Below, in pieces: positions 7,360 to 61,439 of a stretch of 64,000 bases of DNA. Numbering within the stretch: the stretch's first letter is position 1; every line of letters begins with the position of its first letter. The DNA is from Anaerobacillus isosaccharinicus (GTDB lineage Bacteria; Bacillota; Bacilli; Bacillales; Anaerobacillaceae): assembly GCF_001866075.3 (NCBI RefSeq), contig NZ_CP063356.1, forward strand, positions 1 through 64,000, in the 5' to 3' direction. The notes beneath the pieces were generated by a model that was given only the letters and a program-made list of their open reading frames with translations, did not search any database and had not been told where the DNA came from. Both the position numbers and the translations under genes were made by a program.

Positions 7360-7430
7360 AATGTAGAATGTAAAATTGTGAAAGTAGAGTCTCCGAGGCT
7401 TCTCGTTCACGAATTTCTACATTCTACATT
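7360..7430. repeat. Heptamer-repeat foldback element E2
   Basis: Left arm AATGTAGAATGTAAAATT (7360-7377) and right arm AATTTCTACATTCTACATT (7412-7430) are near-perfect inverted repeats. Each is built from the 7-bp unit TAGAATG. They flank a GC-richer core with GTGAAAGTAGAG and GAGGCTTCTC. The right end runs into the gluP stop codon. Confidence 0.8.
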
Positions 7431-8985
7431 AACCTATTTTTTCCAGCACCTTTTCAATCGTAGTTTTTAACTCAATATAGTCCCCTGTGTTTGGGTTTAA
7501 TTCTAGTGCCTTTTCAACAGAACGATAGGCATCTAAATACTGTCTTAATTCAAAATAGACTAATGACAAATTAAAATGAGCTTCGTGTAGGTACGGGCGC
7601 TGTTCAATAGTAATTAGCAAATTTTTTTCAGCATCTTTTAATAAGCCTAATCTGGCTTCACTATAAGCTAACAAAAAATTGGCTTCAACAACCTCTACAT
7701 CATGCTCAACCGCTTCTTTCAGTAAAGGGTATGCTCGCTCAATCTCCCCTCTTTGCAGTAGCTCCTGAGCTATTTGAATGTTAATTAGATGCATTTTTTC
7801 CACATCTTCTTGAATAGTAAAACCATAGAGTAATAACCCACTAAATGCTCCTGCAGTTACGATAAATGTGATAAATTGTTGTTTTCTAATCTTATGTCTT
7901 GGTAAATGTAAAATTGCTGAAGCTAAAAACCCTCCCACTAATCCACCAATATGAGCACTATTATCAATCATTGGTATCATAAATCCTAGCGCAAGATTAA
8001 TGATAATTATAACAATGATGTTAACTCCCATTGTTCTTAAAAATAATTTACGGTGAATTAACCCAAAGTAAAGCAACGCTCCAAAGCAACCAAAAATAGC
8101 CCCAGAAGCACCCGCAGATACTTGACTGTTAAAAGCAAAGCTACTCATAGAACCCATTAATCCAGCAACCAAATAAATAAAGACAAACCTTGGCGTGCCG
8201 TATATTCGTTCCACAGCACCTCCTAAATAAAAAAGCGCAAAAGAATTCATAAATAGGTGTAAAAATCCAATATGTAAAAATATAGCTGTAAAAAAGCGCC
8301 ACCATTCTCCTTGATGGATAAGGGGATCATATTTTGCACCGAATTCGACTAACGTCAATAAACTCGTACTACTCCCATAGAACTCCATAAAACCAAAGAT
8401 GACAAGGACGTTTAGTAAAATTAAATATGTAAAAAAAGGCTTCCCATAGGTGAACAAAGCTTTTTCTTTTTTAAATTGTTTGTCTGAAATTGTGACAACC
8501 TCACGACGATACCGATGAATATCTTCTGCAGTGTAATGATCGTGATATAATTCAGGGATTTGGCAATCTAGTAGCTCAGATAACTTCGAAACTCCTAGCC
8601 TATTTTCTCTTTCAGTATCAATGATAAACGTTTCGATACTAACACGGTTATTTTTTGTGACAAATGATTTTTCAAGAAAGTTCTCAAAGGAATCAACAGG
8701 CAAAAAAGTAGAGATATAAATATTGATGATTTTAAGCCGCCTACTTTTGAACTCTTTGCGAATTTTTTCACTATCTTTAGCCAATTTCTCTAGATCTCTA
8801 GCAATATAGTTACTCCAGTCCATGTCTCTACGATAGATGCGAACAACGGTTGTTTCATCGGAATTCTCTTTTTCTAACCAAATTTCTTTTTCATCAGATT
8901 TTACTTGAAATGCCCTCATACCTGCGTTTACGACAAGATGATGAATAAATTGCCAATAGTAAGCGTCTTGGCTTAATCCGTCCAT
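7429..8985 (-). CDS. gluP: Rhomboid intramembrane serine protease with C-terminal TPRs
   Basis: 518-aa polytopic membrane protease of the GluP/YqgP type. A soluble N-terminal domain (1-175) precedes a six-to-seven helix rhomboid core. Catalytic Ser294 is in GASGAIFG and His345 in NSAHIGG; the HIGFLHLFMN motif is also present. A tail of TPR-like repeats covers about 395-518. In B. subtilis the orthologue works with FtsH to remove the transporter MgtE. The start at 8985 follows the HAD gene's TGA by four bases, with AAGGA seven bases upstream; an ATG at 9012 lacks a ribosome site. Confidence 0.93.
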   Translation of the reverse strand: MDGLSQDAYYWQFIHHLVVNAGMRAFQVKSDEKEIWLEKENSDETTVVRIYRRDMDWSNYIARDLEKLAKDSEKIRKEFKSRRLKIINIYISTFLPVDSFENFLEKSFVTKNNRVSIETFIIDTERENRLGVSKLSELLDCQIPELYHDHYTAEDIHRYRREVVTISDKQFKKEKALFTYGKPFFTYLILLNVLVIFGFMEFYGSSTSLLTLVEFGAKYDPLIHQGEWWRFFTAIFLHIGFLHLFMNSFALFYLGGAVERIYGTPRFVFIYLVAGLMGSMSSFAFNSQVSAGASGAIFGCFGALLYFGLIHRKLFLRTMGVNIIVIIIINLALGFMIPMIDNSAHIGGLVGGFLASAILHLPRHKIRKQQFITFIVTAGAFSGLLLYGFTIQEDVEKMHLINIQIAQELLQRGEIERAYPLLKEAVEHDVEVVEANFLLAYSEARLGLLKDAEKNLLITIEQRPYLHEAHFNLSLVYFELRQYLDAYRSVEKALELNPNTGDYIELKTTIEKVLEKIG

Positions 8986-8989
8986 AGTT

Positions 8990-9727
8990 TCATCCTTCCA
9001 ACTTGTTTTCATGATAAATAAATGTAGCAACGTCCTGGAGGCTAAGACAAATTTTCACTGGGTTATGGTTTGTTTTAGGTTCCTCTTCTCTTGTATTTAA
9101 AAATATAGCATCCCAGCCCGCTTCTATTGCACCAACAACATCATGCTCCCAAGAATCGCCCACAAACAGATAGTCACCTTCTGAGCATAAATTTGCTTTT
9201 GCTAAATCAAATATTTTTCTGTCTGGTTTCCATATCTTTAATTCTTCTGAAACGAAAATACAATCATTTGATATCCATTCATTAAGCTCTAATTTATTTA
9301 TTTTATTATATTGAGTATCGGCAGTCCCATTTGTAATAATACCTACTTTTATATCTGCTTCGATTAAATTACTTATTAAAGAGTGTAAATAGGGGTATGG
9401 CTCACTAAAATCATCAACAACACGGTAATAATGTTGATGAAATTCATCTGCTTCTAGAGTAGTGAATGGTAACTTGAAATTTTCTACAGTACTTAAAAAC
9501 CTCTTTCTGCGGTACTCCTGTGGCGACAAAACCCCATTCTCATAATCTGTCCAAAAAAGGTCACTATATTTTTTAAAAACCTTAAAAAGCTCACTTATCT
9601 CAATGTCTTTAAGGAGATCCTTTTTCTTAAGAACAGATTCAAAACAAAAACAAATTGACTTCTCAAATGCCTTTTCATGACTAAAAAGTGTATTGTCCAA
9701 ATCGAAACAAATCGTTTTCCATCTCAT
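8990..9727 (-). CDS. HAD-superfamily hydrolase
   Basis: 245-aa cytoplasmic phosphatase of the HAD-IA (YjjG/PynA-like) type. Motif I is DLDNTLF with both Asp, motif II ITNGT, motif III the Lys in IWKPDR, motif IV FVGDSWEHD. The start at 9727 is set by AAGGGGGAG seven bases upstream. It directly precedes gluP and is almost certainly co-transcribed and translationally linked with it. A nucleotidase role is plausible, but the substrate is undetermined. Confidence 0.88.
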   Translation of the reverse strand: MRWKTICFDLDNTLFSHEKAFEKSICFCFESVLKKKDLLKDIEISELFKVFKKYSDLFWTDYENGVLSPQEYRRKRFLSTVENFKLPFTTLEADEFHQHYYRVVDDFSEPYPYLHSLISNLIEADIKVGIITNGTADTQYNKINKLELNEWISNDCIFVSEELKIWKPDRKIFDLAKANLCSEGDYLFVGDSWEHDVVGAIEAGWDAIFLNTREEEPKTNHNPVKICLSLQDVATFIYHENKLEG

Positions 9728-9797
9728 GTTACTCCCCCTTAGAATGATTATACCAATCATTACCTATATTTTCGAATGAAGTACTTAATATTGAAAA

Positions 9798-9821
9798 AGA
9801 AGTGGACATTTGCCCACTTCT
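9798..9821 (-). terminator. Terminator of the 68-aa membrane protein gene
   Basis: Stem AGAAGTGG/CCACTTCT followed on the minus strand by a T run. Confidence 0.8.
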
Positions 9822-9849
9822 CTTACTAATCATTTAACTATTTCCAATT

Positions 9850-10056
9850 TTAGAATGGCATAAACCTTGAATAAAACCGATCCCGAATAAATGGAATTTG
9901 TAATGCACCGGAAACCGCTAAACGGCGGATCCATCTCGTTCCTAATACAAGATTAATTAATCGGTATCTGTATTGATAAATAAAGAATACCGATACCATT
10001 GAAATTACCAATGTCATGAACATATTGTTATCATTATTTCTGTTATTAAACATCAT
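9850..10056 (-). CDS. Small membrane protein of unknown function
   Basis: 68 aa (66 from the second ATG at 10050). The Asn-rich N terminus is followed by one membrane segment (about 13-35), and a basic C terminus ending RDRFYSRFMPF. GAGGTG lies upstream, equally compatible with both ATGs. Own terminator and flanking spacers suggest a monocistronic unit. No family recognised. Confidence 0.65.
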   Translation of the reverse strand: MMFNNRNNDNNMFMTLVISMVSVFFIYQYRYRLINLVLGTRWIRRLAVSGALQIPFIRDRFYSRFMPF

Positions 10057-10114
10057 TCCTTCACCTCATTACTAAGTTTTGATTAATGAGACTTATTTAT
10101 TCTAGAAAAATAAA

Positions 10115-10162
10115 AAAACCTAATTCAATTTGTTTTATCAAAAGTCAAGTAAATTAGGTTTT
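10115..10162 (-). terminator. Terminator of ldh
   Basis: AAACCTAATT and AATTAGGTTT form a stem around a loop of about 25 bases. On the minus strand it is followed by T-rich sequence. Confidence 0.75.
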
Positions 10163-10173
10163 ACAGCGTATCT

Positions 10174-11154
<981 letters not shown>

Positions 11155-11170
11155 TTAATTTACCATAAAA

Positions 11171-11188
11171 CAATCTTACACAAGATTG
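11171..11188. promoter_or_regulatory. Inverted repeat upstream of ldh
   Basis: CAATCTT and AAGATTG are perfect 7-bp arms around a four-base spacer, about 47 bases upstream of the ldh start. It could be an operator or a leader hairpin. It does not match the Rex consensus I know. Confidence 0.35.
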
Positions 11189-11279
11189 AAACAGAAAACT
11201 GTTATGTAAGCGTAATTAATCATGACAAATTTATTACAAAATCAACCATGAGCTGTTTTTAATTTTTACTACAAGGTTT

Positions 11280-12296
11280 TTACAAACCGATATATCTTGC
11301 GTATAAAGTCTTAGCTCTAGTAATATCCTCTGTCCCTTGTATAAGTGTTCTACCGTCAGGGAATAAAACTAATCTTTCACCTTCAACTAACTCAACTCGA
11401 ATTAAAAATGGGGTTTTTGAAACTTTTGCAACTTTTTTTAATTTCTCCGCCCACTCATCTAAATCTAATTTCTGTCCCATATTTATTTGAACCGTTTCTC
11501 TTCCACAAAGGGATGTCACTGTTTGTTCACTGTCTCCTTCAAGTGCAGGGTACTCATGTAGGCTACAAGTAGGACAATTTTCTTTGCTTTTTGAAAATTT
11601 CATTTCATACATATGATGCTTCCATACATCAAAAGTTATTAAACTTTTCCGTTGAACTTCATGATTGTCCGTTAAATACTTCAACGCTTCGATCGTTTGG
11701 AATGAAGCTACAATATCAACTACAGGTGATATGACCCCAATCGTATCACAGGTCTGCCCTGTTGAGTTTCCTCCACCGATAAAACAACGTAGGCAAGGAG
11801 TAACTCCAGGGATAAAGATTGCTGACATACCTCTCGAACTTACAGCTCCACCATAGACAAAAGGGATCTCATTTTTATAACAAGCATCATTTATTAAAAA
11901 GCGAGTCTGAAAATTATCTGTACCGTCTAAAACTAGATCAACACCATCCATTAATTCAGCTATGTTTTGCAGAGTTACATCGGTAACAATCCCTTCAACA
12001 GTTACGTCAGAGTTTATTTTCTTTAAACGCTTTTCGGCAGCAATGGCTTTGGGTAAAGCTTCAACTACATCATCCTCATCAAAGAGCATTTGCCTTTGTA
12101 AATTGCTTTTCTCAACATAATCCCGATCCGCAAACCGAACGTGGCCAACCCCTGCACGAACAAGATGATTAGCTAAAACCGTCCCTAGTGCCCCCATTCC
12201 CACAATTAGGACTTTCTTAGTCGCAAGTTTTTTTTGCCCTTCTTCTCCAATAGGCTGAAATAGTATTTGTCTAGAATAACGCTCTAAATTTTCCAT
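11280..12296 (-). CDS. ThiF/MoeB-family adenylyltransferase
   Basis: 338-aa E1-like enzyme that adenylates the C-terminal Gly-Gly of a sulfur-carrier protein (ThiS or MoaD). It has the nucleotide motif GMGALGT, Arg/Gln in SNLQRQ, the catalytic Asp region LVLDGTDNF, and two zinc CxxC pairs (CLRC and CPTC). A C-terminal segment beginning CGRETVQI is shared by Bacillus MoeB/ThiF proteins of similar length. No other thiamine or molybdopterin genes are nearby, so the pathway cannot be settled. It follows the cyclo-ligase gene by 19 bases and may share its transcript. Confidence 0.88.
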   Translation of the reverse strand: MENLERYSRQILFQPIGEEGQKKLATKKVLIVGMGALGTVLANHLVRAGVGHVRFADRDYVEKSNLQRQMLFDEDDVVEALPKAIAAEKRLKKINSDVTVEGIVTDVTLQNIAELMDGVDLVLDGTDNFQTRFLINDACYKNEIPFVYGGAVSSRGMSAIFIPGVTPCLRCFIGGGNSTGQTCDTIGVISPVVDIVASFQTIEALKYLTDNHEVQRKSLITFDVWKHHMYEMKFSKSKENCPTCSLHEYPALEGDSEQTVTSLCGRETVQINMGQKLDLDEWAEKLKKVAKVSKTPFLIRVELVEGERLVLFPDGRTLIQGTEDITRAKTLYARYIGL

Positions 12297-12315
12297 TAAA
12301 TATCCTCCAAACCCT

Positions 12316-12858
12316 TTATATGCTAATTAATTTCTCTACAGCAACATCATGTTCTTCAACGGGTACTTCGTCAACAATTTGAAGTCCAAAAGCAAGAGAT
12401 ATTGTTTTATTTGTATAATTAGACAAGTAGCGGTCATAATAGCCACCACCATAACCGATACGAAACCCTCTTTTGTCATAAACAATACCTGGGACAACCA
12501 TAAGATCAATCTCATTTTTTGGTACATAAGGAGTGACTGAAATAATTGGTTCTTTTAATGAATAAAAGCTGTCCTCAACTTCTTGAAAAGAGTTAAATTG
12601 ATAAAACCTCAACTCCCTGTTTTTAGGAAAACATTTCGGAACAACAATGCGCTTGTTTTGCCGCCATCCTTCTTCAATAATTTCTTTTGTATCAACTTCT
12701 CTGCCAGTAGAGATGGTTAATCCAATCGTCAATGCCTCTGCCCATTCATTGCTATTAATGAGCTCGTCCTTAATCCTTGTAGATAGCGCCCAATAGTCTA
12801 TATCATTCATCTCTAGTAACTTTTTTTTTATCTCTTCACGTACATTTCCTTTATTCAT
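12316..12858 (-). CDS. yqgN: 5-formyltetrahydrofolate cyclo-ligase
   Basis: 180-aa ATP-dependent enzyme converting 5-formyl-THF to 5,10-methenyl-THF. The hallmark GYGGGYYDRYL lies near residue 134, and the substrate/ATP region VVPGIVYDKRGFRIG precedes it. It follows rpmG on the same strand, as in B. subtilis. The start has only a weak GGTG site. Function secure. Confidence 0.93.
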   Translation of the reverse strand: MNKGNVREEIKKKLLEMNDIDYWALSTRIKDELINSNEWAEALTIGLTISTGREVDTKEIIEEGWRQNKRIVVPKCFPKNRELRFYQFNSFQEVEDSFYSLKEPIISVTPYVPKNEIDLMVVPGIVYDKRGFRIGYGGGYYDRYLSNYTNKTISLAFGLQIVDEVPVEEHDVAVEKLISI

Positions 12859-12932
12859 TTTATCACCTTGAATACACTAATTTTCCAGCTTAATTTTTAT
12901 TATACTTTATTCTTTTATCAAAGTTAAATATT

Positions 12933-12991
12933 CGAGTAAATTTCATAATTATCAAAAACCCACAAAAGTGTTTTTAACAATGAGAAATCCG
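12933..12991. repeat. Possible decayed repeat segments upstream of yqgN
   Basis: The part 12933-12961 resembles the left end of the TIR element (TTCATAATTATCAAAAAC). The part 12962-12991 (ACAAAAGTGTTTTTAACAAT and onward) is nearly identical to 27466-27494. It is non-coding, and its origin is uncertain. Confidence 0.45.
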
Positions 12992-13022
12992 TATCATTAC
13001 TCTAAAAAAATATAAAAAAAAA

Positions 13023-13042
13023 TAAGCAGACAAGTCTGCTTA
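13023..13042 (-). terminator. Terminator overlapping the rpmG stop codon
   Basis: Stem TAAGCAGAC/GTCTGCTTA with a two-base loop, followed by a T-rich minus-strand tract. Confidence 0.8.
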
Positions 13043-13189
13043 CTTAGTTTCGCGATGCACAGTATATTTCTTTAATCTTGGGCTATATTTCTTTAACTCA
13101 AGACGGTCTGGGTTATTACGTTTATTTTTAGTAGTGATATAGTTACGATCACCAGTTTCTGTACAAGCTAATGTAATATTTACACGCAT
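13040..13189 (-). CDS. rpmG: Ribosomal protein L33, zinc-independent form
   Basis: 49-aa large-subunit protein, too short for a typical ORF list. It begins [19 protein letters not shown] and ends TVHRETK; GGAGGG lies seven bases upstream of the ATG at 13189. Zinc-binding L33 has two CxxC pairs. Here only one Cys remains (CTET and YSPRLKK replace them), so this is a C-minus paralogue. The locus corresponds to rpmGB of B. subtilis, which I remember as the four-cysteine form. Confidence 0.93.
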
Positions 13190-13274
13190 TCGTTATCCCT
13201 CCAAACATGCTTTACTTCAATCATACTTTTAAATAATAGCAAAATACATGCTAACAATCAAGTACTTCTTTTTA

Positions 13275-13901
13275 TTAGTATTTCGAACATAATTGTGTTT
13301 CGCAATTAACTAGAGGAAGGTTTAACTGTGTAATCGTATTACTGTTTAGAACTTCGTTTTCATTTTTACCTTCACATATCCAAAAATAGGCTTCAATCCT
13401 TTGATTAGCCTCTATTTCACCTTCCAAGCTAATAATACTTACTTCACTACATTGCGAAAATGGTTGCATCATAACGATACCTTCATTTAACGGACAAAAC
13501 TCATCAAAATCAGTACAATATTGAACGATACCGCGGTTATTCATAACGCCATTTAATAATAAGTAATGATCATTATAAGAGCGGACGATTGCTTGGACTG
13601 ATGGAGCATAAAATGTAATACTCTCTTCGGCAAACTCCATGAGATCCTGGGTAAAGAAAAGCCTTATCTCTCTATTTTTATCGTATGAATTTTGAATAGT
13701 AATGACTTGAAGCATCGTTTCACCATAAAACATTGGTAGTATTGTGATTGAAAGGTTGATTCTATGATTAGTAAATACTTTTTGCTGATTGCTACCGTTA
13801 GTTTCACATATCCAGCCATCTCTATCTAACCATGTAAAAAAACCATCAACCCATACACCATACTTTAATTTGCATTGTTCCTTATTATGAATGTACTTCA
13901 T
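13275..13901 (-). CDS. Unknown protein of the polysaccharide operon
   Basis: 208 aa, mostly beta-strand-like, soluble, with no signal peptide. The opening ([16 protein letters not shown]) and later pattern recall beta-sandwich regions of amylolytic or glucoamylase-type proteins, but I cannot assign a family. Its ATG overlaps the stop of the nucleotidyltransferase gene by four bases (ATGA), so it is translationally coupled and probably works in the same pathway. Last gene of the operon. Confidence 0.7.
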
Positions 13902-16339
13902 TTATTATCACCTACCGTTTCTAAATCTTGATACTTTTGAATATTTAGAATTTTCTTGACGTAATTTGACGACTGTTGTCTAGCTATGTTTAAATCTTTG
14001 GCCTGTGAATAGACAGTAAACACTGGCTTTTCACGGTCAGGTAAAATCAATGTCCAGCCACCATCAGGATGGTGAACTTTTATTCCATCTAATAACTCAA
14101 TCTTGGACTGACTATTTTCTTGCATAAGAATTCTCATCACTAACCCTTTAGCAGTTTTAGGACAATAAACGGACTCACTTAATAAATGAATACTTGGCAA
14201 CATCTTAATAAGTTGTGATAACTTTATATTTTGTTTGGTCATCATTTCGACAATGTGAATAAACGCGTACTGAGCATCAAATAAATAAGTGAACACACTT
14301 CCTTCTTTTTCCATAATTGATCTTGGATCAGCTTTTGTTCGAACAATTTTCCCACCTAATCTTTTGGCTAAGATATCTAATTCACTAGAGCCATGATGTG
14401 GTATTGCCATAATTCCCTCTTTTTTCTCATAAAAATGGAGCATAATATAAAGAGCTAACATCGTTTCATCTGCTACTATTTCCCCTTCTTCGGTAATCAC
14501 CTTTAAGAACTCTCCTGTTTCCCCAATTAAAATTCCTAAATCCCCTCCAACTCCTTGGACATATTTGGATAATTCGATTGGGGCTTTGTGATTTGGTACT
14601 GTGTAGATCTCACAATTTAATTTTTCAAGCAATTTAGGTACGAAGTAGAAATGATGACAGTGCTCAAAGCCAATAATAACTTTTAAATTTGCATTTTTAA
14701 TTTGTTTTATCGAAATCAAACTAATTAAACTGTTTATATAGCTATCTTCAACATTATTTACCGATGCGCTAAAACCAATTTGGTCAAAAGAGGCGCGACG
14801 ATAATCCTCCTGCCAAAAAGCATTTTCAATTTTTCTTTCAAGTTCTGCAGAGATGGGATAGCCTTTACCATCATAAAACTCAGCAGAAATTTGCATTTCA
14901 CCATTACGATTTACAAAACGGAAATATACCCCGCCAATGACAGGTTCTCTTTCCACCGTAAAACGAACGATTGGGGGTATTGTTATACCAATATCAACCG
15001 TGCTAATACCTGCAGACAATATCCCGGTTTGAAAAGATGATTTCATTAAATTCGTAATCGAATAACTATCAGAGCCTAAGACAATTTTGCCTCCTTGTGG
15101 CAATACAGCCCCATATGCGGACGCCAGCCTTGCGAAGAAATCAGGTGTAATTTCCACATTGGCTAAACCCGATACCCCTCTCCCGTTAAAAAGGGATCTT
15201 GTAATCTTTTTCCCCCATATTAAAGACGTATGAACAATAGCTGATTCTTCAATTGTTTTATTCGGCCATACTTTTACTTCAGGTTTAATGATGGCATTGG
15301 AAGCAATTGTACATTGCTCACCTATGACAGAAGCTTCATAGAGCGAAGCAGAATTTTCTAATTTTGTTCCTTTACAAATGGTTGTACCTCTTAATTCACT
15401 ACTATCTCCAACGTAAATATCATTCCATAATATCGACTTTTTTAACGTGCAATTTGTTGAAAGGATAGAATGCTTACCTATGATGCATTGCCCATCTAAA
15501 ATCGATCCTGAGCGAATGACTGTACCATCACCTATTGAAATAGGCCCATTTAAAGTTACATCATCTTCAATGTGGACATTTTTCCCAATCCAAATGCCTT
15601 CATTAGTTTCATTACCAAGTAGTGAAACCTGAACTTTCTTCTTTAGCATATCAAACTGAGTTTCTCGATAAGAGTAGAGATTACCAACATCGGACCAATA
15701 ACCATCTGCTTTAAAACCAAATATCGCCTGTTTTTCTTTCATTAACAATGGGAACGTATCTTTACTAAAATCAGTCGGTACGCCTTCCTCTAAAAAAGTG
15801 AAAATTTCAGGCTCTAACACATAAATTCCTGTATTAACGGTATCACTAAATACCTCATTCCAATTTGGTTTTTCTATAAACCTAACAACTTCATTATTTT
15901 CATTCGTCAAAATCACACCATAATCAAGTGGGGTTTCAACTTGTTTCATGAAAATAGTTGCAAGTGCATTTTTTTCAAGATGGAACTGGATTCCTTTTGA
16001 AAGATTGAAATCTGTTAAACCATCGCCACTAATAACCACAAAACGTTCATCTAAAAATTTTTGTGCATTTTTTATACTTCCAGCAGTACCTAACGGCAAT
16101 TTCTCCACAAAATAATGCAATTTAACTCCAAATTGGCTACCATCACCAAAGTAGTCCTTAATTACATCAGGTAAATATTGCAAGGTGACTGCTATCTCAG
16201 TAATTCCATACTTTTTTAATAATTCGATTGAATACTCCATTACCGGTTTATGAACAAGTGGAACCATTGGTTTTGGAATGTTACAAGTTAAAGGACGAAG
16301 GCGTGTTCCTTTTCCACCTGCCATAATAACAGCTTTCAT
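13898..16339 (-). CDS. Sugar-1-phosphate nucleotidyltransferase fused to a degenerate phosphohexomutase
   Basis: 813 aa. Residues 1-235 are a nucleotidyltransferase with [11 protein letters not shown], the VISGDG metal Asp, the EKP motif and DVGNLYSY. About 250-365 form hexapeptide left-handed beta-helix repeats. About 375-800 have a phosphohexomutase-like fold. That last domain lacks the catalytic TASHNP serine loop (the equivalent reads [11 protein letters not shown]). It also lacks the DGDxDR metal loop ([10 protein letters not shown]) and a recognisable sugar-phosphate loop. The mutase part is therefore probably regulatory. Expected product is an NDP-sugar for the adjacent glycosyltransferase; the nucleotide and sugar are unknown. 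Confidence 0.85.
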
Positions 16340-23790: not shown

Positions 23791-23880
23791 AAATGTAGAA
23801 TGAAAAATGTAGAATTATGATTGAAAAGCTTCGTAGCCTCACTTTCAAAATTCTACATTCTACATTTTAAATTTTACATT
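23791..23880. repeat. Heptamer-repeat foldback element E3
   Basis: Left part has two ATGTAGAAT units, right part TTCTACATTCTACATT, flanking a core TTGAAAAGCTTCGTAGCCTC. The reverse complement of the core aligns with those of E2 and E4. The right end again runs into a stop codon, that of the MFS gene. Confidence 0.8.
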
Positions 23881-25937: not shown

Positions 25938-25972
25938 TTAAATATCCTCCTTAAAATGCGTAAAATTATTGA

Positions 25973-26066
25973 ATAATTATAAATTTAGAATTGTGAATTG
26001 TTAAAGTAAAGCTTTGAAGCTCAACCCTAAAAACCATTCATAATTCATAATTAATAATTCAAAATT
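25973..26066. repeat. Heptamer-repeat foldback element E4
   Basis: TTAGAATTGTGAATTGTTAA on the left and CATTCATAATTCATAATT on the right flank the core AAAGTAAAGCTTTGAAGCT. The core aligns with E2 and E3 although the heptamer here is of the ATAATTC type. It lies in the sodA leader. Confidence 0.75.
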
Positions 26067-26175
26067 TCCAACAGTTACTAACTGTCAATTCCTACATTAG
26101 CAGATTTAACCTCTCCTTTCAAATAATTAGCTCAAGCTTTATAGTGCTTAATTTAAATTGTTAAATTTAAAGCCA

Positions 26176-35139: not shown

Positions 35140-35215
35140 TTTTGAATTACTTATAATTATGAATTAAAATTGATTTCATAATTCATAATTCATAATTCAC
35201 AATTCACAATTTATC
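35140..35215. repeat. Heptamer-repeat foldback element E5
   Basis: TTGAATTACTTATAATTATG on the left and three CATAATT units plus two CACAATT units on the right form a long AT-rich inverted repeat. It is of the CATAATT type with no GC-rich core. It ends about 20 bases before the ispG ribosome site. Confidence 0.75.
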
Positions 35216-35250
35216 ATTTTCGAATTAATAGAAGGGGCGATTTTTAACCA

Positions 35251-46078: not shown

Positions 46079-46147
46079 TTTAATGTAAAATGTAGAATTT
46101 TTTTGTTAGTAACGCTCCGCTGTAAAGAGCTGCTCTTTGGAACTTCT
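46079..46147. repeat. Heptamer-repeat element E6 (partial)
   Basis: TTTAATGTAAAATGTAGAAT directly follows the yqfT stop, then a core with TTGTTAGTAACGCTCCGCTG and AGAGCTGCTCT. The right arm is reduced. It is related to the ATGTAGA-type elements. Confidence 0.6.
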
Positions 46148-50189: not shown

Positions 50190-50237
50190 CAGCATCTTTG
50201 AACTACATTCACAACTCTACACTCTAAACTCTAAACT
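50190..50237. repeat. Heptamer-repeat element E7 (half element)
   Basis: AACTACATTCAC followed by ACTCTAA-type heptamers. It aligns with the right half of E8 (61381-61435) almost base for base. Confidence 0.7.
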
Positions 50238-53195: not shown

Positions 53196-53278
53196 TTGGC
53201 TTCACCTATACTTTATGTATTGTCAATTTAATCTTAATCGTTTACTACTAGCTATGCAAATCTCTCTTGTTACAAATA

Positions 53279-53310: not shown

Positions 53311-53313
53311 ACT

Positions 53314-53893: not shown

Positions 53894-54430
53894 TTAAAAT
53901 AGGAAATATATTGAAATAATAATCCCTATTGCTCCAGATATTATTAAATACTTCAAGTTATATTTCTTCCCAACAAATAGCCATCCAAAACATGTAAAAA
54001 TTACTGCTCCCATTATCGCACCTGGCTGATCTGGAAAAATAAAACTAACTCCATGTATTGTAGCTAAAAAAAACATTAATGCACCTAATAATATGTATAA
54101 ATGAATAAAGCGGGAATCAAATCGTTTTATTTGAGTTGCAACGAAGAACATCACACCACTCAAAATCAAAACAAGACCAATTTGCAATAAAGGTGAAAAA
54201 TCAGTAAAATAAATGACAAGAAATGTTAATCCAAATAATGATAAACCAAAAGCCATTATAATTATTGGTAAGAAGCTAACCAGACTAGATTTTTCTTTTC
54301 TCTCATCTGTACTGCCTGTCTCTTGCCCTTCTGTGTAAAGGGACAGTAAGAAGTTACAATATTGCTCAGGTAAAAGTCGGCTTTTTTTCCAATACTTTAT
54401 TTCATCGATTATTATTTTTTTTCGATCCAT
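53894..54430 (-). CDS. Membrane protein of unknown function
   Basis: 178 aa. A short N-terminal soluble part (EIKYWKKSRLLPEQYCNFLLSLY) resembles the start of DUF2157-type membrane proteins, then about five membrane segments. Not coupled to its neighbours. It lies between sigA and cccA, where B. subtilis has no large gene that I recall. Confidence 0.7.
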   Translation of the reverse strand: MDRKKIIIDEIKYWKKSRLLPEQYCNFLLSLYTEGQETGSTDERKEKSSLVSFLPIIIMAFGLSLFGLTFLVIYFTDFSPLLQIGLVLILSGVMFFVATQIKRFDSRFIHLYILLGALMFFLATIHGVSFIFPDQPGAIMGAVIFTCFGWLFVGKKYNLKYLIISGAIGIIISIYFLF

Positions 54431-54586
54431 ATTCTTGACTCCTTCACACTATGTGACTATATTCTAGCATGTTTCGACTTTGTTGGAAGGATTTATCCAA
54501 ATTCGGATAAAAAACAGGATGAAAGTCATATTAATTTTTTACAAGTGTAGATTTTTTTAGGGAAATACACTTGAAGCAAAAAAGAA

Positions 54587-54615
54587 AGGTTTACTTCAGA
54601 AATTGAAGTAAACCT
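54587..54615 (-). terminator. Terminator of dnaG-sigA
   Basis: Stem AGGTTTACTTCA/TGAAGTAAACCT with a five-base loop and a T-rich minus-strand tail. Confidence 0.9.
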
Positions 54616-54630
54616 GACTTAATATAAGTT

Positions 54631-55749
54631 CTATTCTAGGAAATCTTTAAGACGTTTACTTCTGCTCGGGTGGCGAAGCTTACGTAATGCTTTTGCTTCA
54701 ATTTGCCTAATGCGTTCACGAGTTACTCCGAAGACTTTTCCTACTTCTTCTAAAGTTCGTGTACGGCCATCATCAAGTCCAAAGCGAAGCCTGAGAACAT
54801 TCTCTTCCCGATCAGTTAACGTATCTAAAACATCTTCTAACTGCTCTTTTAACAGTTCGTAAGCTGCAGCGTCTGAAGGGGCCAATGCTTCTTGATCTTC
54901 AATAAAGTCACCAAGATGTGAATCATCTTCTTCACCAATAGGTGTTTCTAATGAAACAGGCTCTTGAGCGATTTTTAAAATTTCTCGAACCTTTTCAGGT
55001 GTTAGGTCCATCTCTGCAGATACCTCTTCTGGTGTTGGTTCGCGACCTAAATCTTGAAGTAATTGACGTTGAACCCGAATTAACTTATTAATTGTTTCAA
55101 CCATGTGCACAGGTATTCTAATCGTTCTTGCTTGGTCAGCAATCGCTCTCGTAATTGCTTGTCGAATCCACCAAGTTGCATACGTACTAAACTTATACCC
55201 TTTTTCGTAGTCGAACTTTTCAACAGCTTTAATTAAGCCCATGTTACCTTCTTGAATTAAATCAAGAAATAACATTCCTCTACCTACATATCGTTTAGCG
55301 ATACTAACAACTAGTCGTAAGTTTGCTTCAGCTAGTCTTCGCTTAGCTTCCTCGTCACCTGTTTCAATCTTTTTTGCCAATTCAATCTCATTCTCTGCAG
55401 AAAGAAGCGGAACACGACCAATTTCCTTTAAGTACATTCTAACGGGATCGTTAATTTTAATACCCGGTGGTACACTTAAATCGTTTAAGTCAAATTCTTC
55501 TTCTTCTTTTGCAACCTCTTGAATGTTTGGGATATCATCTGACTCGTTTAAAACCTCGATACCTTGGTCACCTAAATATTCGAAGAACTCGTCCATTTGA
55601 TCTGAATCTTGTTCAAAGCTAGATAGCTTTTCTGTAATTTCAGCATATGATAGTACACCTCGTTTTTTTCCGAGCTCTACTAATTGTTCCTTAACTTGAT
55701 CGATTGACATTTCTCCTTCTGCCACTGGGCGAAGCGGTTTGTCTGCCAT
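54631..55749 (-). CDS. sigA: Primary RNA polymerase sigma factor
   Basis: 372 aa from the ATG at 55749 (GGAGGGGG upstream), matching the 371-aa SigA of B. subtilis. Region 1.1 is short, region 1.2 has [11 protein letters not shown], region 2 has [14 protein letters not shown]-type core, region 3 and region 4.2 HTH ([19 protein letters not shown]) are complete. Follows dnaG by about 100 bases in the conserved macromolecular-synthesis operon. Confidence 0.97.
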
Positions 55750-55852
55750 ACGACCCCCTCCTTCCGATAGTTCAACTACAAGCTTATACATATCAAAACA
55801 ACGATTGTTGCTAGTATTAGAACAGTTAAATTTTTATTTATAATAAAAGCAA

Positions 55853-57661
55853 TTAGTGCTTTAAATCCTTTTTCATTTGAATAATTTCCATTGCAATTCT
55901 AGCCGCTTGAGCATAATCTTCTCGGCTCTCAGCTTCTTTTCTTTCCTTTTCTTTTTCTTCAATCTTTACGATCTTTGGATAGTTTGTGATTTGTTTAAAA
56001 TAATCATACAATTCCTGCTCCGACAATTCTTCACTTGTTGCCATCATCGCAATCTCCGTTGCTATTCTAGCTAATTTATCGTCATGTAATCTCTGGATAA
56101 ATTGACTTGAGTTTGGTTCATTACCTTCAGCGTAATAAGAATAGAGATACGCTACGATCGACTGGTACTCATCGATGTTAAAATTGCCACCAATTTTTTC
56201 TTTTACTGTACTGGCAATATTAATATCTTTCATCATAAAGGCTAAAAGAATTCTTTCAGCATTATGAAATGCCGGTAAGAGACGTTTTTTTGTGACAAAT
56301 CCACTTTTAAAACTTGGTTTATTTTGCTTAGGTTGATTAACGTTTTTCTGATTTTTAAATTTATAGAGACGAAGAAGCTCTTGTTTTAATACATCTAAGG
56401 AAAGAGAAAATTCATCTGCTAATTGTCTAACGTAATGATCACGTTCAATTGATTTGGTAAGGGATGTAATTTCACCAAGAACATCTTCTATGTATTGCAT
56501 TCTTTCCCCTTCATTCTGAAGATTTTTTCCTCTACGAAGAAAATTCATTTTAAAAGCCATTGTTGTTTGATTAGCTCCAATTACCTCCACTCGAAACTTT
56601 TCTGGCCCATTTTCTTGAATATAATCATCTGGGTCATAACCTTCTGGAAGCCTAGCAACCTTCACATAACAATCATTCGCCTCTAGAATTTGGATAGCAC
56701 GATAAGTCGCTTTAAGCCCGGCGTTATCAGAGTCATAACAAACGATAACCGTTTGAGCATTTCGTCTAATAAGCTTTGCCTGCTCATCAGTAATAGCTGT
56801 TCCTAACGTGGCGATACCATTTCGAACCCCTGCTTGCCATGCAGCAATGACGTCTACATAGCCCTCAAATAATACCGCTTCATTTTTCTTCCTCATTTCC
56901 GGCCTTGCAATGTGTAATCCATACAAAGTGTTACTTTTATTAAAAACCTTTGAATCTGAGCTATTTAAGTATTTAGGTTGTTCATTCCCTAAAACTCGAC
57001 CACCAAAACCGATAACTTTACCATCTTTGTTCCAGATCGGAAAGATGACTCTGTTTCGATATCGATCAAACAATTTCCCGTCAAAATCTCGCTTAGCAAG
57101 AAGTCCAATTTGCTCCATGTAATGGAGGGGTACATTTCTTTTTTGAAAGAACTGAGTTAAGGTTTCCCATGAATCCGGAGCAAATCCTAACGAAAATTGC
57201 TGAATCATTTCCTCAGTGAAGCCCCGCCTTACTAAATAATCTAAGGCATCCTTCCCTTGCTCTGTATTCATTAGGAGATGGTGATATAGCTTGGCAGCTA
57301 GTTCATTTCCAGCAATCATAGCGTTTAGTTCACTTGATGCATTTGAAGTTTCACTTTTCTCTAGTTCAGGTAAATCAATATTAGCCTTTGTCGCTAAATG
57401 TTTCACTGAATCTAAAAATTCATACCCTTCGATCGCCATCATAAAAGAAAACGCATTACCACCTGCCCCACAGCCAAAACAGTGATATAACTGCTTTTCT
57501 GGTGAAACAGAAAAGCTAGGTGTGTTTTCTCCATGAAACGGACATAGACCAATTAAGTTTCGTCCTTGTTTCTTTAATTGAACATATTCACTAATAACAT
57601 CAACAATGTCTACAGAATTTCTTATCTTTTCGATTTTTTCATCAGAAATTCTACTTCCCAT
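55853..57661 (-). CDS. dnaG: DNA primase
   Basis: 602 aa. N-terminal CHC2 zinc-binding domain (CPFHGENTPSFSV, YHCFGCGAGG), TOPRIM core with the FEGYVDVIA Glu and CYDSDNAG Asp pair, and a C-terminal helicase-interaction domain (about 450-602). Makes RNA primers at the fork. Weak ribosome site. First in dnaG-sigA; upstream lies the yqxD remnant. Confidence 0.96.
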   Translation of the reverse strand: MGSRISDEKIEKIRNSVDIVDVISEYVQLKKQGRNLIGLCPFHGENTPSFSVSPEKQLYHCFGCGAGGNAFSFMMAIEGYEFLDSVKHLATKANIDLPELEKSETSNASSELNAMIAGNELAAKLYHHLLMNTEQGKDALDYLVRRGFTEEMIQQFSLGFAPDSWETLTQFFQKRNVPLHYMEQIGLLAKRDFDGKLFDRYRNRVIFPIWNKDGKVIGFGGRVLGNEQPKYLNSSDSKVFNKSNTLYGLHIARPEMRKKNEAVLFEGYVDVIAAWQAGVRNGIATLGTAITDEQAKLIRRNAQTVIVCYDSDNAGLKATYRAIQILEANDCYVKVARLPEGYDPDDYIQENGPEKFRVEVIGANQTTMAFKMNFLRRGKNLQNEGERMQYIEDVLGEITSLTKSIERDHYVRQLADEFSLSLDVLKQELLRLYKFKNQKNVNQPKQNKPSFKSGFVTKKRLLPAFHNAERILLAFMMKDINIASTVKEKIGGNFNIDEYQSIVAYLYSYYAEGNEPNSSQFIQRLHDDKLARIATEIAMMATSEELSEQELYDYFKQITNYPKIVKIEEKEKERKEAESREDYAQAARIAMEIIQMKKDLKH

Positions 57662-57727
57662 GACAATTCACACCATTCTCACTCACTCATTTTAAGAGTT
57701 CGGAGTATACTAATTCGAGTTTTTTTG

Positions 57728-57923
57728 CTAAATTCCTTCTTTGTTAGACAAAAATTTTTCGAATCCCTCAATAAATTTTAAAATATCTTCATTTGTAAAC
57801 TTACTTGGGCCTTTTGATCTCATTCTAGCCCTTCTTTGCAATTGTTCGACAAATAGCTTCAATCTCATCTTTAACTGGACAGGGATCAGCTTCTACATAA
57901 ACGGTTTGTTCACAATTACGCAT
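57728..57923 (-). pseudogene. yqxD: Remnant of yqxD (DUF188/UPF0178) with internal deletion
   Basis: From the ATG at 57923 the minus strand reads MRNCEQTVYVEADPCPVKDE, matching the family start VYVDADACPVKDE, and runs to a stop after AIAKKG-type residues near 57826. A second frame then gives RARMRSKGPSKFTNED and FIEGFEKFLSNKEGI before a stop at 57728, matching the family C terminus (GRTKGP.KFT). The middle of about 80-90 residues is gone and the frame is shifted. B. subtilis has intact yqxD at this exact place between dnaG and yqfL. Confidence 0.85.
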
Positions 57924-58257
57924 AATTGACTATTCTACATCTCCTAGAGAAATCCTTCTTTTTTATCCTTTAAGACAGCTGAAACTTGTTAAGGAAGGAT
58001 AGTAATAGTAAAACTAGGGCTTTACTACCAGTAAAACAACTAAACTTTATAATAGGTCATAAGCCGTTAGTTGTTTATTCTCGAGAAAAATCGTTATTTA
58101 ATGTCCTTACTATCATTACCAAAAAAAAAATATTAAATCTTGACTTTTTTAATTTATTTGTTCTATTAATAAAATATGCATATTTTTTGATCACAATATT
58201 TCATTATAAGCCATTTTTACCATTCTAGCCACATTTTTTTGAAAAATATTCTTTTAC

Positions 58258-58377
58258 TTGAATGAAATTCATAGTTACCAAATACGAATCTTGTCAAACT
58301 ATAGGTTATTGCGGGGTTTTGCGTAACTACCTATAGGACCTTAAAGGCGAGATTATGTCATTTATGAAATTCATTAA
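58258..58377 (+). repeat. TIR element copy C
   Basis: Starts TTGAATGAAATTCATAGTTA and ends ATGAAATTCATTAA like copies A and B, with TCAAACTA retained. The centre differs: CTATAGGT/ACCTATAG frames a GC-richer hairpin. It lies in the 500-base spacer between the yqxD remnant and yqfL, which is otherwise AT-rich and empty. Confidence 0.7.
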
Positions 58378-58387
58378 TAAAAAAAGA

Positions 58388-58417
58388 AAAGCACAAAGTT
58401 TCTTCAACCTTGTGCTT
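58388..58417 (-). terminator. Terminator of yqfL
   Basis: Stem AAGCACAA/TTGTGCTT around a loop of about 13 bases; a T run follows on the minus strand. Confidence 0.85.
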
Positions 58418-58422
58418 CCCCT

Positions 58423-59238
58423 TTAATTTTTTCCATTGAACATGTTCCAAATTAGATTAGCTGTTTCTTCAACAGCTTTATTTGAAACATTAATAACAGG
58501 GCAACCAATTCTTGTCATAATTTTCTCAGCATATTCTAGTTCTAGTTTAATTCTTTCCATATTTGCATAATTAGCTTCTGCCTTTAAGCCAAGTGCTTTC
58601 AATCGTTCTGCTCGAATATCATTTAATTTCTCTGGGCTAATCGTTAACCCAACGCATTTTTTCGGTGATATTGAAAAAAGCTCTGCTGGAGGCTCAACTT
58701 CTGGCACAAGTGGAACATTTGCAACCTTTAGTCGTTTATGAGCTAAATATTGAGAAAGTGGAGTTTTCGAAGTTCTCGAAACACCTACCAAAATTACATC
58801 TGCTCTTATAATACCTCGAGGATCTCTTCCATCGTCATATTTGACAGCGAATTCAATCGCCTCAACTTTTCTAAAATAATCTTCATCTAGCTTATGAACT
58901 AGCCCCGGCTCATATCGTGGTTCTTTTTTAGTGAAATCCTGAAGTTTACTTATCATTGGTCCAATGATGTCTACAGTTATCACTCCAGCTTTTTCAGCTT
59001 GATCTAAAAGAAACTGTTTTTTTTCAGGAACGACTAACGTAAAGGCAATAATTGCATTTACTTCTTGAGCTAGGGTTACTACTTCTTCAATCGTTTCATT
59101 ATCTTCTACATATGGAATTCTTCTAATATCGATATTTGAGTGATTGAATTGACTAGCAGCTGCTTTTACAACTAATTCTGCTGTTTCACCTACAGAATCA
59201 GAAACTACATATACTATTGGATGATTGATTATCTGCAT
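58423..59238 (-). CDS. yqfL: Bifunctional kinase/pyrophosphorylase (PPDK regulatory protein family)
   Basis: 271 aa from the ATG at 59238 (GGAGG five bases upstream). DUF299 protein with the P-loop [11 protein letters not shown] (about 150) and the opening [13 protein letters not shown] pattern. Family members phosphorylate and dephosphorylate a Thr of pyruvate phosphate dikinase or PEP synthase. Next to ccpN, as in B. subtilis, where YqfL influences CcpN-controlled gluconeogenic genes. No PPDK gene is in the window. Confidence 0.92.
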
Positions 59239-59338
59239 TCTTACCTCCAGTTTCAAATTTCGAAGTTCTTTTCGATTAAATCTGAAAGAAATTCAAAATG
59301 TGACGTTAAATCTTAAGTTTTCTATTTTATGTTATCTA

Positions 59339-59989
59339 CTAAACCAATTCATCATTTGCGAGATCTACGATGGCTCTTGTAATATTAGTTTTTGTTATTC
59401 TTCCTACAACCTCAAACAACGAGCCGTTATTATTTTTCACTACCGGAAGAGCATCAATTTGCTTTTCAATGAGTTTTTTAGCAACATCGATGATTAAGTC
59501 TTCCTTATAGCAGATCGTTAAATTCGGCATTCTCGTCATAATAATACTTACAGGTACAGTCTCAAGCATTTGTTTTCCAATACTCGCTCTTAATAAATCT
59601 TTTCTTGATAAGACTCCTACTAAGGACGATTGTTGGTCTACCACAAACAATGTACCTACATCCTCTAAAAACATCGTACAAATAGCATCGTAAACAGATG
59701 ATGAATCAGTTACAACAACTGGAATAGATTGGTATTGTTGTACAGTTAGTTTAGTTAACCTTTCAGTTAGGAGTCTACTCCCACTTTTCCCAGTATAAAA
59801 ATAACCTACTCTTGGACGAGCGTCTAAATACCCTGCCATCGTTAGAATCGCTAAATCAGGACGTAAGGTAGCCCTAGTTAAAGAAAGCTGCTCTGCGATT
59901 TGTTCCCCTGTTATTGGTCCATTATCTTTTACGATTTGTAAAATACGTTCTTGCCTTTTATTTAGTTCGATTTTTCTCACCGCCTCCAT
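59339..59989 (-). CDS. ccpN: CcpN-type gluconeogenesis repressor
   Basis: 216 aa as drawn; homologues begin near IELNKRQE, so a GTG at 59980 is the other candidate start. N-terminal winged helix (LTRATLRPDLAILTMAGYL) and two CBS domains (about 85-140 and 150-210). Represses gluconeogenic genes such as gapB and pckA on glucose in B. subtilis. The glyQ-glyS genes that follow it toward recO in B. subtilis are missing here. Confidence 0.93.
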   Translation of the reverse strand: MEAVRKIELNKRQERILQIVKDNGPITGEQIAEQLSLTRATLRPDLAILTMAGYLDARPRVGYFYTGKSGSRLLTERLTKLTVQQYQSIPVVVTDSSSVYDAICTMFLEDVGTLFVVDQQSSLVGVLSRKDLLRASIGKQMLETVPVSIIMTRMPNLTICYKEDLIIDVAKKLIEKQIDALPVVKNNNGSLFEVVGRITKTNITRAIVDLANDELV

Positions 59990-60176
59990 AACACAATAAA
60001 TAGTAAGCTGTTAAAATAAGCTTCCAAAGTCTTCAAATAAATTTTCAAGCTTATGTATTTTTTCTTTACCCCACTAAAATGTGTTATGCTTTTTGGATAA
60101 TTATATACCATATTAAAGGATTTTCAAATAAGACTTGTTTGGACTTCTAGTTATTTTTTTAATTTAAAATAAAAAA

Positions 60177-60202
60177 AGATATCTTTCACTTGAGAGATAT
60201 CT
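60177..60202 (-). terminator. Terminator of recO
   Basis: Stem AAGATATCT/AGATATCTT with a T-rich minus-strand tail. Confidence 0.82.
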
Positions 60203-60210
60203 TAATTATA

Positions 60211-60960
60211 CTATTCTAATTTCATTTTATCGATTTGATTTAAAAACCGTTTACTCTTTAAATATAGACCTGAATATTCATCAAAATAGCATTCTAAAAC
60301 TTGTTTTAATTGTACTTTTGTTTCAGTTTTTACCGATATTGCCCCTAAACGATTTAAATCAAAATGATAAAACAGTCTGAGTAGTTTTGCCGTACCAGAA
60401 CTGATCTTGATGGTTCTTTCATCAACATGTAAGCACCGGTGACATAGAAATCCTCCTTCTTTAACTGAGAAAGAATACTCCCCTTCAGTAGCACCGCAAT
60501 GTGAACATCCATCAACATATAAGCCGATTCCTGCCACCTTTAACATTTTCACTTCAAAGATTCGAGTTAAAACTTCATAATCTAAACCTTCATCAATATA
60601 CTTTAATGTTTGAAAAAGAAGCTCATATAAATATGGATTTATCTCGTATTGTTCTGTTAGTTTATCTAATAGCTCGACAATATAAGCCCCATAAGCTGTT
60701 AAAAATAGATCTTCACGTAAATCTCGAAACGATTGGATCATTTCTCCTTGATTTAAAACACCTAGACCAGAGGTTTTTTGAAAAACATATTGACCATGCG
60801 TGAACAGTTGTGAAATTGAAGAAAGACGGCTCTTTGGACGCTTTGCACCACGAGCCATCACTCCAATCTTACCTAATTCTCTCGTATACAATGTTAGAAT
60901 TTTATTCGCTTCTCCATAATCTGTGGTGCGAATAACAATCCCCTCTACTTTTTGTAACAT
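60211..60960 (-). CDS. recO: DNA repair protein RecO
   Basis: 249 aa. N-terminal OB fold (VEGIVIRTTDYGEANKIL), helical core and a zinc finger with CSHCG and CHRCLH pairs. Loads RecA with RecR in gap repair. GGTGA lies six bases before the ATG. Downstream of yqzL and era on the same strand. Confidence 0.95.
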   Translation of the reverse strand: MLQKVEGIVIRTTDYGEANKILTLYTRELGKIGVMARGAKRPKSRLSSISQLFTHGQYVFQKTSGLGVLNQGEMIQSFRDLREDLFLTAYGAYIVELLDKLTEQYEINPYLYELLFQTLKYIDEGLDYEVLTRIFEVKMLKVAGIGLYVDGCSHCGATEGEYSFSVKEGGFLCHRCLHVDERTIKISSGTAKLLRLFYHFDLNRLGAISVKTETKVQLKQVLECYFDEYSGLYLKSKRFLNQIDKMKLE

Positions 60961-60998
60961 TTTTGATCACCGCGCCATTTTCAAAATAGCAAACAAGA

Positions 60999-61142
60999 TC
61001 AATTTGTAGGAGTGTCTATTTCATCTAGCTTCTCTGTAAACTCCTCTAGCGGTTGCGTAGTGTCTCTTTCAATTTCCTTCAAAATTAAGTAAGTATCGAC
61101 GTTACCTGTCATCGAAAATACCTTCCAGGAAAAATCTAACAT
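60999..61142 (-). CDS. yqzL: YqzL family protein
   Basis: 47 aa from the ATG at 61142 (GGGTGG eight bases upstream), exactly the length of B. subtilis YqzL. It opens MLDFSWKVFSMTGNVDTYL, closely matching that family; the 14 upstream codons are not conserved. Between era and recO as expected. Function unknown. Confidence 0.88.
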   Translation of the reverse strand: MLDFSWKVFSMTGNVDTYLILKEIERDTTQPLEEFTEKLDEIDTPTN

Positions 61143-61311
61143 AAGACAATCCACCCTTTCTTTTTTCGAGAAACTGAATTTCATTTGATTTTTAGTTAAC
61201 TTCTCTTACCTACCACAATGGTATTTATAAAAGCTATCCTAGACCTCGCTATAACATTTAGAATGACCTTATTTACGAAAAACATGTTAAGGAAAAATTA
61301 CTAATTTTTTT

Positions 61312-61439
61312 TAATGTAGAATGTAAAGTGTAAAGTGTAGAGTTCTCTGGGCATTGCTTCGAAGCAACGCTTTCAAAAAAACTTCTTTCGAACTACATTC
61401 ACTAACTTTACACTCTAAACTATAAACTCTACACTATAA
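61312..61439. repeat. Heptamer-repeat foldback element E8
   Basis: Left arm AATGTAGAATGTAAAGTGTA with AGTGTAA-type heptamers, core TTGCTTCGAAGCAACG (perfect palindromic part) and right arm with ACTCTAA-type heptamers. The longest member, about 128 bp, between era and yqzL. Confidence 0.8.

Follow-up and report, generated by a model that had tools for sequence, protein, structure and literature searches.

Repeats built on a seven-nucleotide unit have been described in several bacteria, and heptamers are the most abundant long-unit simple repeats in most of the repeat-rich bacterial genomes surveyed (work cited in the accessible text of PMC4679880). Here we describe a dispersed family of foldback elements with arms of tandem heptamers in Anaerobacillus isosaccharinicus, first noticed in the opening 64 kb (the window) of its single contig of 5,227,144 bp. 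The closest described kind comprises the heptamer repeats of Xanthomonas, (GGGAATC)n or GGGANTN, and of Nostoc, GGGGAYT, which have been explained by G-quadruplexes; Rehm et al. (2015; PMC4692102) report no general link between them and mobile elements, and describe just a few inverted pairs for Nostoc. As in Anaerobacillus, the units are 7 nt long, about four of them are preferred, and they lie between genes, commonly at most 50 bp from a stop codon or overlapping one; in Xanthomonas the likeness extends to copy number, inverted pairs and positional conservation, insofar as the same text covers them (PMC4692102), and 24 of 30 sites of A. isosaccharinicus are likewise occupied in a sister genome (G005). 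The original prediction, an earlier note on the window, knew of no described Bacillaceae family of this build. Searches of open-access literature aimed at Bacillus-type families (subscription papers lay outside their scope) did not contradict that statement, but closely similar anatomy has been published for Xanthomonas and partly for Nostoc (accessible text of PMC4692102). Unlike those repeats, the Anaerobacillus units are AT-rich without G-tracts and enclose a palindromic core common to the elements, at shared sites their class varies between species, and elements are present in some rRNA operons and absent from others.

Other known systems share parts of this anatomy. REPINs, or REP-BIME sequences with their RAYT proteins, are also many short extragenic hairpins with inverted repeats that insert beside or into existing copies, as far as the available text describes them (PMC3116915); the Anaerobacillus arms, in contrast, are degenerate heptamer arrays, no RAYT adjacency was seen at the 30 of 50 Y1 loci inspected, and their presence does not track that of Y1 genes. 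The TAACTGA repeats of Beggiatoaceae are dispersed intergenic heptamers of patchy distribution too, but according to the accessible text they are direct repeats of one fixed unit, mostly just before start codons (PMC4679880). Miniature inverted-repeat transposable elements (MITEs) resemble the family in having inverted terminal repeats, many copies and no coding capacity, whereas the target-site duplication of a MITE was not seen at the first of the rRNA sites described below (G002 and G005). REPs carry a conserved tetranucleotide beside the hairpin, GTAG in many of them; GTAG is present in the Anaerobacillus arrays of TAGAATG type and absent from the TTGAGTT and ATGAATT types. Complementary heptanucleotide arrays form the P6b stem of the Nostoc trnL intron, but these lie within one intron, whereas the Anaerobacillus family is dispersed at gene ends.

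The host is an alkali-loving bacillus, and its genome (G000) was compared with six sister genomes of the genus (G001 to G006; G001 is A. alkalilacustris and G003 is A. arseniciselenatis) and with G047, a genome from another family within the order; the assemblies of G003 (80% complete) and G004 (62%) are incomplete. Detection in G000 relied on the window and 40 systematically spaced 20-kb stretches, 864 kb altogether, with genes taken as the longest open frames. A scan for periodicity found 38 arrays of period 7 in this sample. Of the remaining periods between 4 and 15, each gave zero to three runs, apart from 14 (16 runs), which is twice 7. Arms were scored with a hand-made matrix for the unit WWRARTK, written after the window had been viewed, which under-counts other heptamer types (e.g., TTTCTAC in G006): 88 arms reached a score of at least 18 and 68 a score of at least 25, where one order-3 Markov control had 8 and none, respectively. 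Reversed sequence (50 arms at 18 or above, 16 at 25 or above) was dropped as an unfair control because the matrix still accommodates reversed arrays in part. Across the whole G000 genome the two-unit pattern GTAGAATGTAGAATG, with at most one mismatch, matches 416 times and only 3 times when read backwards. Left and right arms could be assembled into 35 pairs, four of them inside the window; the 31 pairs in the remaining 800 kb extrapolate to roughly 200 elements with two arms per genome, whose distribution is uneven.

Elements of the main type consist of a left arm, a core of about 40 nt and an inverted right arm, some 100 bp in all, with lengths ranging from about 70 to 125 bp. Arm units follow the consensus W-W-R-A-R-T-K, with A at position 4 in 98% and T at position 6 in 97% of 364 heptamers from two-armed G000 elements, and arms of three to five units are commonest. 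The core centres on GCTTCGAAGC, set within an imperfect palindrome. A resemblance among cores had been claimed from a few elements of the window, and it is borne out: GCTTCGAAGC occurs 15 times in the 864 kb against 1, 1 and 1 in three Markov controls, and 13 of the 15 occurrences lie at most 60 nt from an arm. The unit classes of left and right arms are closely correlated (r 0.84, n 43; r 0.89, n 24), a level reached in 0 of 5000 permutations. The inverted doublets are extragenic and hairpin-forming, with inverted terminal repeats, many copies and no coding capacity. A second type, which includes E1 of the window and long arrays elsewhere (e.g., L069 9097-9346; L338, L339, L341, L342), is organized around a hairpin, TTGTGA..TCACAA, whose stem varies with pairing retained; its perfect arrays reach 21 units, and the units often differ between the two sides, often TAGAATG on one and TTCATAA on the other.

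Some further features of the arrays deserve mention in their own right. Tandem WWRARTK arrays contain one stop codon per unit and, as 7 equals 1 modulo 3, three units block all three frames. Nested or tandem pile-ups of elements occur at L180, L190 and L346. At L083 19038-19391 (G000 3359038-3359391) a foldback is split by a G+C-richer insert of about 250 bp, with the arms and two GCTTCGA-like core halves left outside it; the insert presumably resembles a repeat common in Bacillaceae.

With respect to genes, the elements are dispersed among spacers, as had been predicted, but they prefer gene ends and are not randomly placed. In 240 kb there are 51 strong arms; only 3 of them overlap an open reading frame (ORF) of at least 80 amino acids, two of these at the ORF 3' end. 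Where a gene 3' end adjoins an element, its distance from the stop codon falls in the range -9 to +8 in 37 of 68 cases, against 21.1 expected from random placement in the same spacers, and among gene ends 9-100 nt from an element TTTT directly precedes the arm in 14 of 21. There are therefore two favoured spots, directly behind the stop codon and directly behind a terminator. On a larger scale, nine consecutive sampled stretches between 3.60 and 4.66 Mb of G000 lack any arm of score 20 or above while other parts are dense; a few elements do occur there between the sampled stretches.

Element positions are often shared between species, while the units often differ. Comparison of the first 240 kb of G000 with syntenic G005 (median protein identity 87.6%) gave 177 comparable spacers, of which 24 carry an element in both genomes, 6 in G000 only, 4 in G005 only and 143 in neither (Fisher P 4e-20), a co-occupancy that insertion hot spots would also produce. 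The original prediction had proposed one lineage whose arms switched unit, and the class of unit, judged by unit position 5, indeed differs at 17 of the 24 shared sites, one of the 7 unswitched sites being half and half in G005. In G005 the switch is complete at 13 of the 17. Both arms were detected in both species at 12 shared sites, 8 of them switched; at the other 12 one arm falls below threshold in at least one species. At the 22 shared sites that were aligned (two long spacers were left out) the flanks match, often up to the element edges; in those that switched it is the units that differ, such as TAGAATG/CATTCTA in G000 facing TTGAGTT/AACTCAA in G005. At site 197684-198105, G005 retains an array of the old type outside a complete element of the new type, which looks as if the new element had landed inside the old one.

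Presence and absence can be compared among the rRNA operons of single genomes, where filled and empty copies stand side by side in the 23S-5S spacer. At site 1, directly behind 23S rRNA, the flanks are 21-26 nt apart in empty copies and 88-125 nt in filled ones. All 11 operons of G000, all 8 of G001 and all 7 that were read in G006 (which has 9) are empty there, as are 4 of the 5 in G002 and 1 of the 13 in G005. The site is filled in one of five in G002 (TAGAATG type), in 12 of 13 in G005 (TAGAGTG/TTGAGTT) and in four of five in G003 (three TTTTGAG, one TTTATAA/TTTAGAA; the fifth is not assignable), and several unit classes thus occupy one site. The empty sequence reads TAAG-AATTGAATT and the filled sequence of G005 TAAG-(element)-ATTGAATT; inspection by eye showed no target duplication in G002 and G005. 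Two G003 copies differ by 21 nt, that is, by three heptamers gained or lost within the array. Because most species are empty at site 1, the pattern suggests that the element was gained there, not lost. Eleven near-identical pattern matches in G005 had been considered as recent transposition, a candidate rejected when ten proved to be copies of the rRNA operon.

The 23S-5S spacer has a second such place, site 2, which follows a small hairpin. It holds a two-armed element in 2 of 5 operons of G002 (hairpin and 5S being 112 and 135 nt apart) and in 1 of 13 of G005 (117 nt, with a weak left arm); it is empty, at 31-34 nt, in 2 of 5 (32 and 34 nt) and 6 of 13 (31 nt), and holds other, armless sequence in 1 of 5 and 6 of 13, respectively. 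All four comparable G003 copies have an array there. One copy is empty in G000, five in G001 and six in G006, the remaining ten, three and one holding other armless sequence (one of those in G001 with a weak match of score 15). This armless sequence measures about 110-165 nt in many copies and contains GTGCTCCTGCG in G000 (e.g., L367-L376 of G000, L355 of G005).

Beyond G000, the family is concentrated in the genus, whose seven genomes are also the whole of its GTDB family. A covariance model built from 21 elements (alignment A1) matched six of the seven genomes at E <= 0.01. Among at most 150 candidates scored per genome, with both strands matched, so that these counts are not copy numbers, it yielded at least 150 matches (every candidate) in G000, 149, 115, 113 and 101 in four sisters, 5 in G001 and 0 in G006; further copies had been expected of such a profile search, and here they were found. 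At least one of the five G001 matches resembles a decayed complete element (L345). A four-unit pattern matched 12 of 249 genomes of the order (47 families), with more than three matches only in five Anaerobacillus genomes and in G047, which has WWRARTK arrays with units of its own. The read-backwards control of this pattern reaches 60/49 in G004, 28/23 in G003, 7/29 in G005 and 18/1 in G002 (0/1 in G000), and so shows the partial fit of reversed arrays that was seen with the matrix. Loci surrounding one orthologous gene, 80 in number and at most 21 kb long, of which only two belong to the genus, show no period-7 excess: they hold four period-7 runs, three of them in A. arseniciselenatis, and zero to four of other periods.

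In the window itself (Table 1), eight spacers had been said to carry elements of one build. Heptamer arrays occur in all eight, far beyond chance, but complete inverted pairs are confined to E2, E3, E4 and E8; E1 has the second type of core, and E5, E6 and E7 are partial. The observation is thus partly confirmed, while the interpretation placed on it, one lineage with switched arm units, is supported. The E1 hairpin, CTTGTGA..TCGCAAG, differs from the main type and is adjoined by the array; at the orthologous place G005 shows a similar hairpin with a degenerate array. Sister species carry heptamers of the same or other units in the E2 spacer and A. alkalilacustris none, and G006, which has no model matches, has a TTTCTAC array there, perhaps a further unit class. 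At the E3 site A. alkalilacustris lacks arms and A. arseniciselenatis has other units; these species also supply the best named relatives of the adjoining protein (89% and 90% identity, respectively). E7 and the right part of E8 had been described as nearly identical, and they agree in 41 of 45 alignment columns. Predicted RNA folds of E2, E3, E4 and E8 beat shuffled sequence, and those of E6 and E7 do not. Rfam models at gathering score matched four tRNAs in the window and none of the elements.

Table 1. Heptamer-armed elements E1 to E8 of the window, with arm scores and fold z-scores.
Element	Position	Strand	Description	Arm score (left/right, or single arm)	Fold z	Remark
E1	5250..5345	.	Second type: hairpin AACTTGTGAAAAATTCGCAAGTT and one perfect array (TTCATAA) x 9.6		-6.4	Fold due to hairpin
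E2	7357..7430	.	Complete foldback, fills spacer of two convergent genes	29/22	-7.2	
E3	23791..23880	.	Complete foldback, core GCTACGAAGC, flanked by stop codon and terminator	37/43	-5.6	Covariance-model match, E 3.7e-10
E4	25970..26067	.	Complete foldback, core GCTTTGAAGC, ATGAATT-type arms		-4.6	Member of alignment A1
E5	35148..35220	.	Right array (TTCATAA/TTCACAA), weak left arm		-2.7	
E6	46082..46140	.	Left arm AATGTAAAATGTAGAAT; remainder does not pair with arm	23	+0.4	
E7	50203..50237	.	Solitary right arm (ACTCTAA/ACTCTAC)	33	+1.0	
E8	61313..61435	.	Complete foldback, core GCTTCGAAGC	37/27	-3.7	Left arm mixes TAGAATG/TAAAGTG/TAGAGTG; right arm of ACTCTAA type

Our preferred reading, which we hold to be probable though far from assured, is that these are non-autonomous mobile foldbacks that inserted at hot spots and were later overwritten by waves with other heptamers. 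A putative trans-acting enzyme would insert foldbacks of about 70-125 bp at three kinds of place, immediately after stop codons, after terminator hairpins and in the spacer between 23S and 5S rRNA, without target duplication; later waves with different heptamers would overwrite or replace older copies, and positions would persist while the repeat units change species by species. Both the dedicated enzyme and replacement through new insertion rather than conversion are what such a reading would entail. Several observations weigh against it. The similarity of cores is not clearly greater within shared sites than between different ones (P 0.25, from the 11 usable sites among 24), which fits replacement and fits fast drift too, and many armless orthologous spacers hold other sequence of similar length, not short empty sites. 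GCTTCGAAGC is found in 0 of 8 fetched G047 loci, even allowing one mismatch. In the rRNA spacer, no separate right arm was detected in the filled copies of site 1, all of which have a scored left arm except L389 (none), the right-arm match of L394 overlapping its left arm; these copies are therefore decayed or one-armed. Moreover, G002 and G005 have a common right junction there, CGG directly followed by ATTGAATT, which could mark one old insertion with its arm changed later instead of two insertions. Finally, no mobiliser was found among Y1 transposases, reverse transcriptases or arm-enclosed genes (about 1.3 Mb for the last). Reverse transcriptases (PF00078) were rejected as candidates, being present in all seven genomes of the genus and so not tracking the elements; 30 of their 34 loci were inspected and showed one weak arm only (score 20). 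No composite of left arm, plausible mobile gene and right arm occurs in about 1.3 Mb of two genomes, where long-range arm pairs number 2 left-to-right and 26 right-to-left. One of the two former is E6-E7, whose intervening genes are syntenic in relatives, and the other is an element split by other sequence.

How far do other explanations account for the same facts? Ancient 3'-UTR (untranslated region) hairpins, fixed for host use and with heptamers homogenized in place by slippage and hairpin-templated conversion, would explain why both species have an element in 24 of the 34 spacers that hold one at all, why array lengths change, as between the two G003 rRNA copies 21 nt apart, and why perfect arrays reach 21 units; slippage favoured at 7 nt has been proposed earlier (accessible text of PMC4679880). 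We nonetheless regard this explanation as unlikely, for whole elements are present or absent among the rRNA operons of one genome, the class change is complete at 13 of 17 switched sites and the common core recurs at unrelated sites. Movement of REPIN-like elements by a RAYT/Y1 single-strand transposase would accommodate the foldback form, the extragenic gene-end position and the unduplicated target at the rRNA site, and Y1 (PF01797) matches exist in 9 of 11 genomes searched (50 in total). The Y1 candidate was nevertheless rejected as mobiliser, a further point against our preferred reading, as its presence does not track that of the elements: G006 has seven Y1 matches and no model matches, whereas G003 has elements and no Y1 match in its 80% complete assembly. 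Furthermore, none of the 30 Y1 loci fetched of 50 (14 of the 30 in element-bearing genomes) has a clear array within about 1.5 kb, and the weak arms (score 19-20) at two of them are matched by the Markov control, which reaches the same level (2 at 20 or above). The REPIN-like alternative is accordingly quite improbable in our estimation.

An RNA-level role, as terminators or stabilizers of mRNA 3' ends selected for pairing, would suit the strong predicted folds of complete elements, their immediate 3' position and the modest advantage in folding of genuine arm pairs over chimeric ones (26 of 38 pairs in G000, 15 of 19 in G005). Compensatory changes, which had been predicted, stand insofar as the arms agree in class, but in-register pairing barely exceeds that of permuted heptamers (mean z -0.32 in G000 and about 0 in G005). 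Nor is there any strand asymmetry of G-U type in the sense of transcription (5' arms have G at unit position 3 in 128 of 186 heptamers, 3' arms in 154 of 209), and many elements sit behind an existing terminator, which together leave selection for RNA pairing highly improbable. Because in-register matching is weak and strand asymmetry absent, we favour mostly selfish mobile elements targeted to gene ends over a host function, although they may have a host role. G-quadruplex repeats, the explanation proposed for Xanthomonas and Nostoc, would match the Anaerobacillus family in unit length, copy number and gene-relative position, at least in the available text of PMC4692102, but AT-rich WWRARTK units have no G-tracts, and for Anaerobacillus this explanation, excluded by unit sequence, has virtually no chance of being correct.

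Heptamer foldbacks are also found farther afield. Among seven 50-kb plasmid stretches from the cyanobacteria Gloeocapsopsis, Kovacikia and Trichormus, five contain period-7 arrays, and a foldback of Gloeocapsopsis is of TTTTGAG/CTCAAAA type, a unit of a sister Anaerobacillus species, but it is without the GCTTCGAAGC core, and other units such as GGGCAGA and TCCTGGC occur in cyanobacteria as well. On the strength of this comparison of sequences, we read the cyanobacterial foldbacks as probably a like kind of element with another unit, without implying common descent. A universal rule of A at position 4 and T at position 6 across phyla was considered and dropped, since a number of units in cyanobacteria violate it. 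Composite foldbacks whose heptamers are of several kinds within one spacer lie on a Kovacikia minuta plasmid (L351 20121-30621) and at L352 32530-32706, and a perfect (AACTCAT)n array, whose unit also occurs in arms of G047 and G005, lies on a Serratia symbiotica plasmid (L250, near 1001-1035).

Tentatively, the elements of Anaerobacillus, of one other lineage of its order, of cyanobacteria and of Xanthomonas may together form a single, widespread class of mobile foldbacks with heptamer arms, a possibility we consider real if on balance doubtful. What would define such a class is not the G-quadruplex but the combination of 7-nt arms, a foldback form and insertion at gene ends with no duplication of the target; a putative trans-acting enzyme would move its members, with waves of new units overwriting old copies in place. 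G-quadruplexes cannot serve as an explanation for heptamer foldbacks as a whole. In Anaerobacillus, the anatomy of arms, core and insertion spots, together with filled and empty rRNA copies and the unit differences at orthologous sites, makes the mobility and turnover of such elements directly testable.

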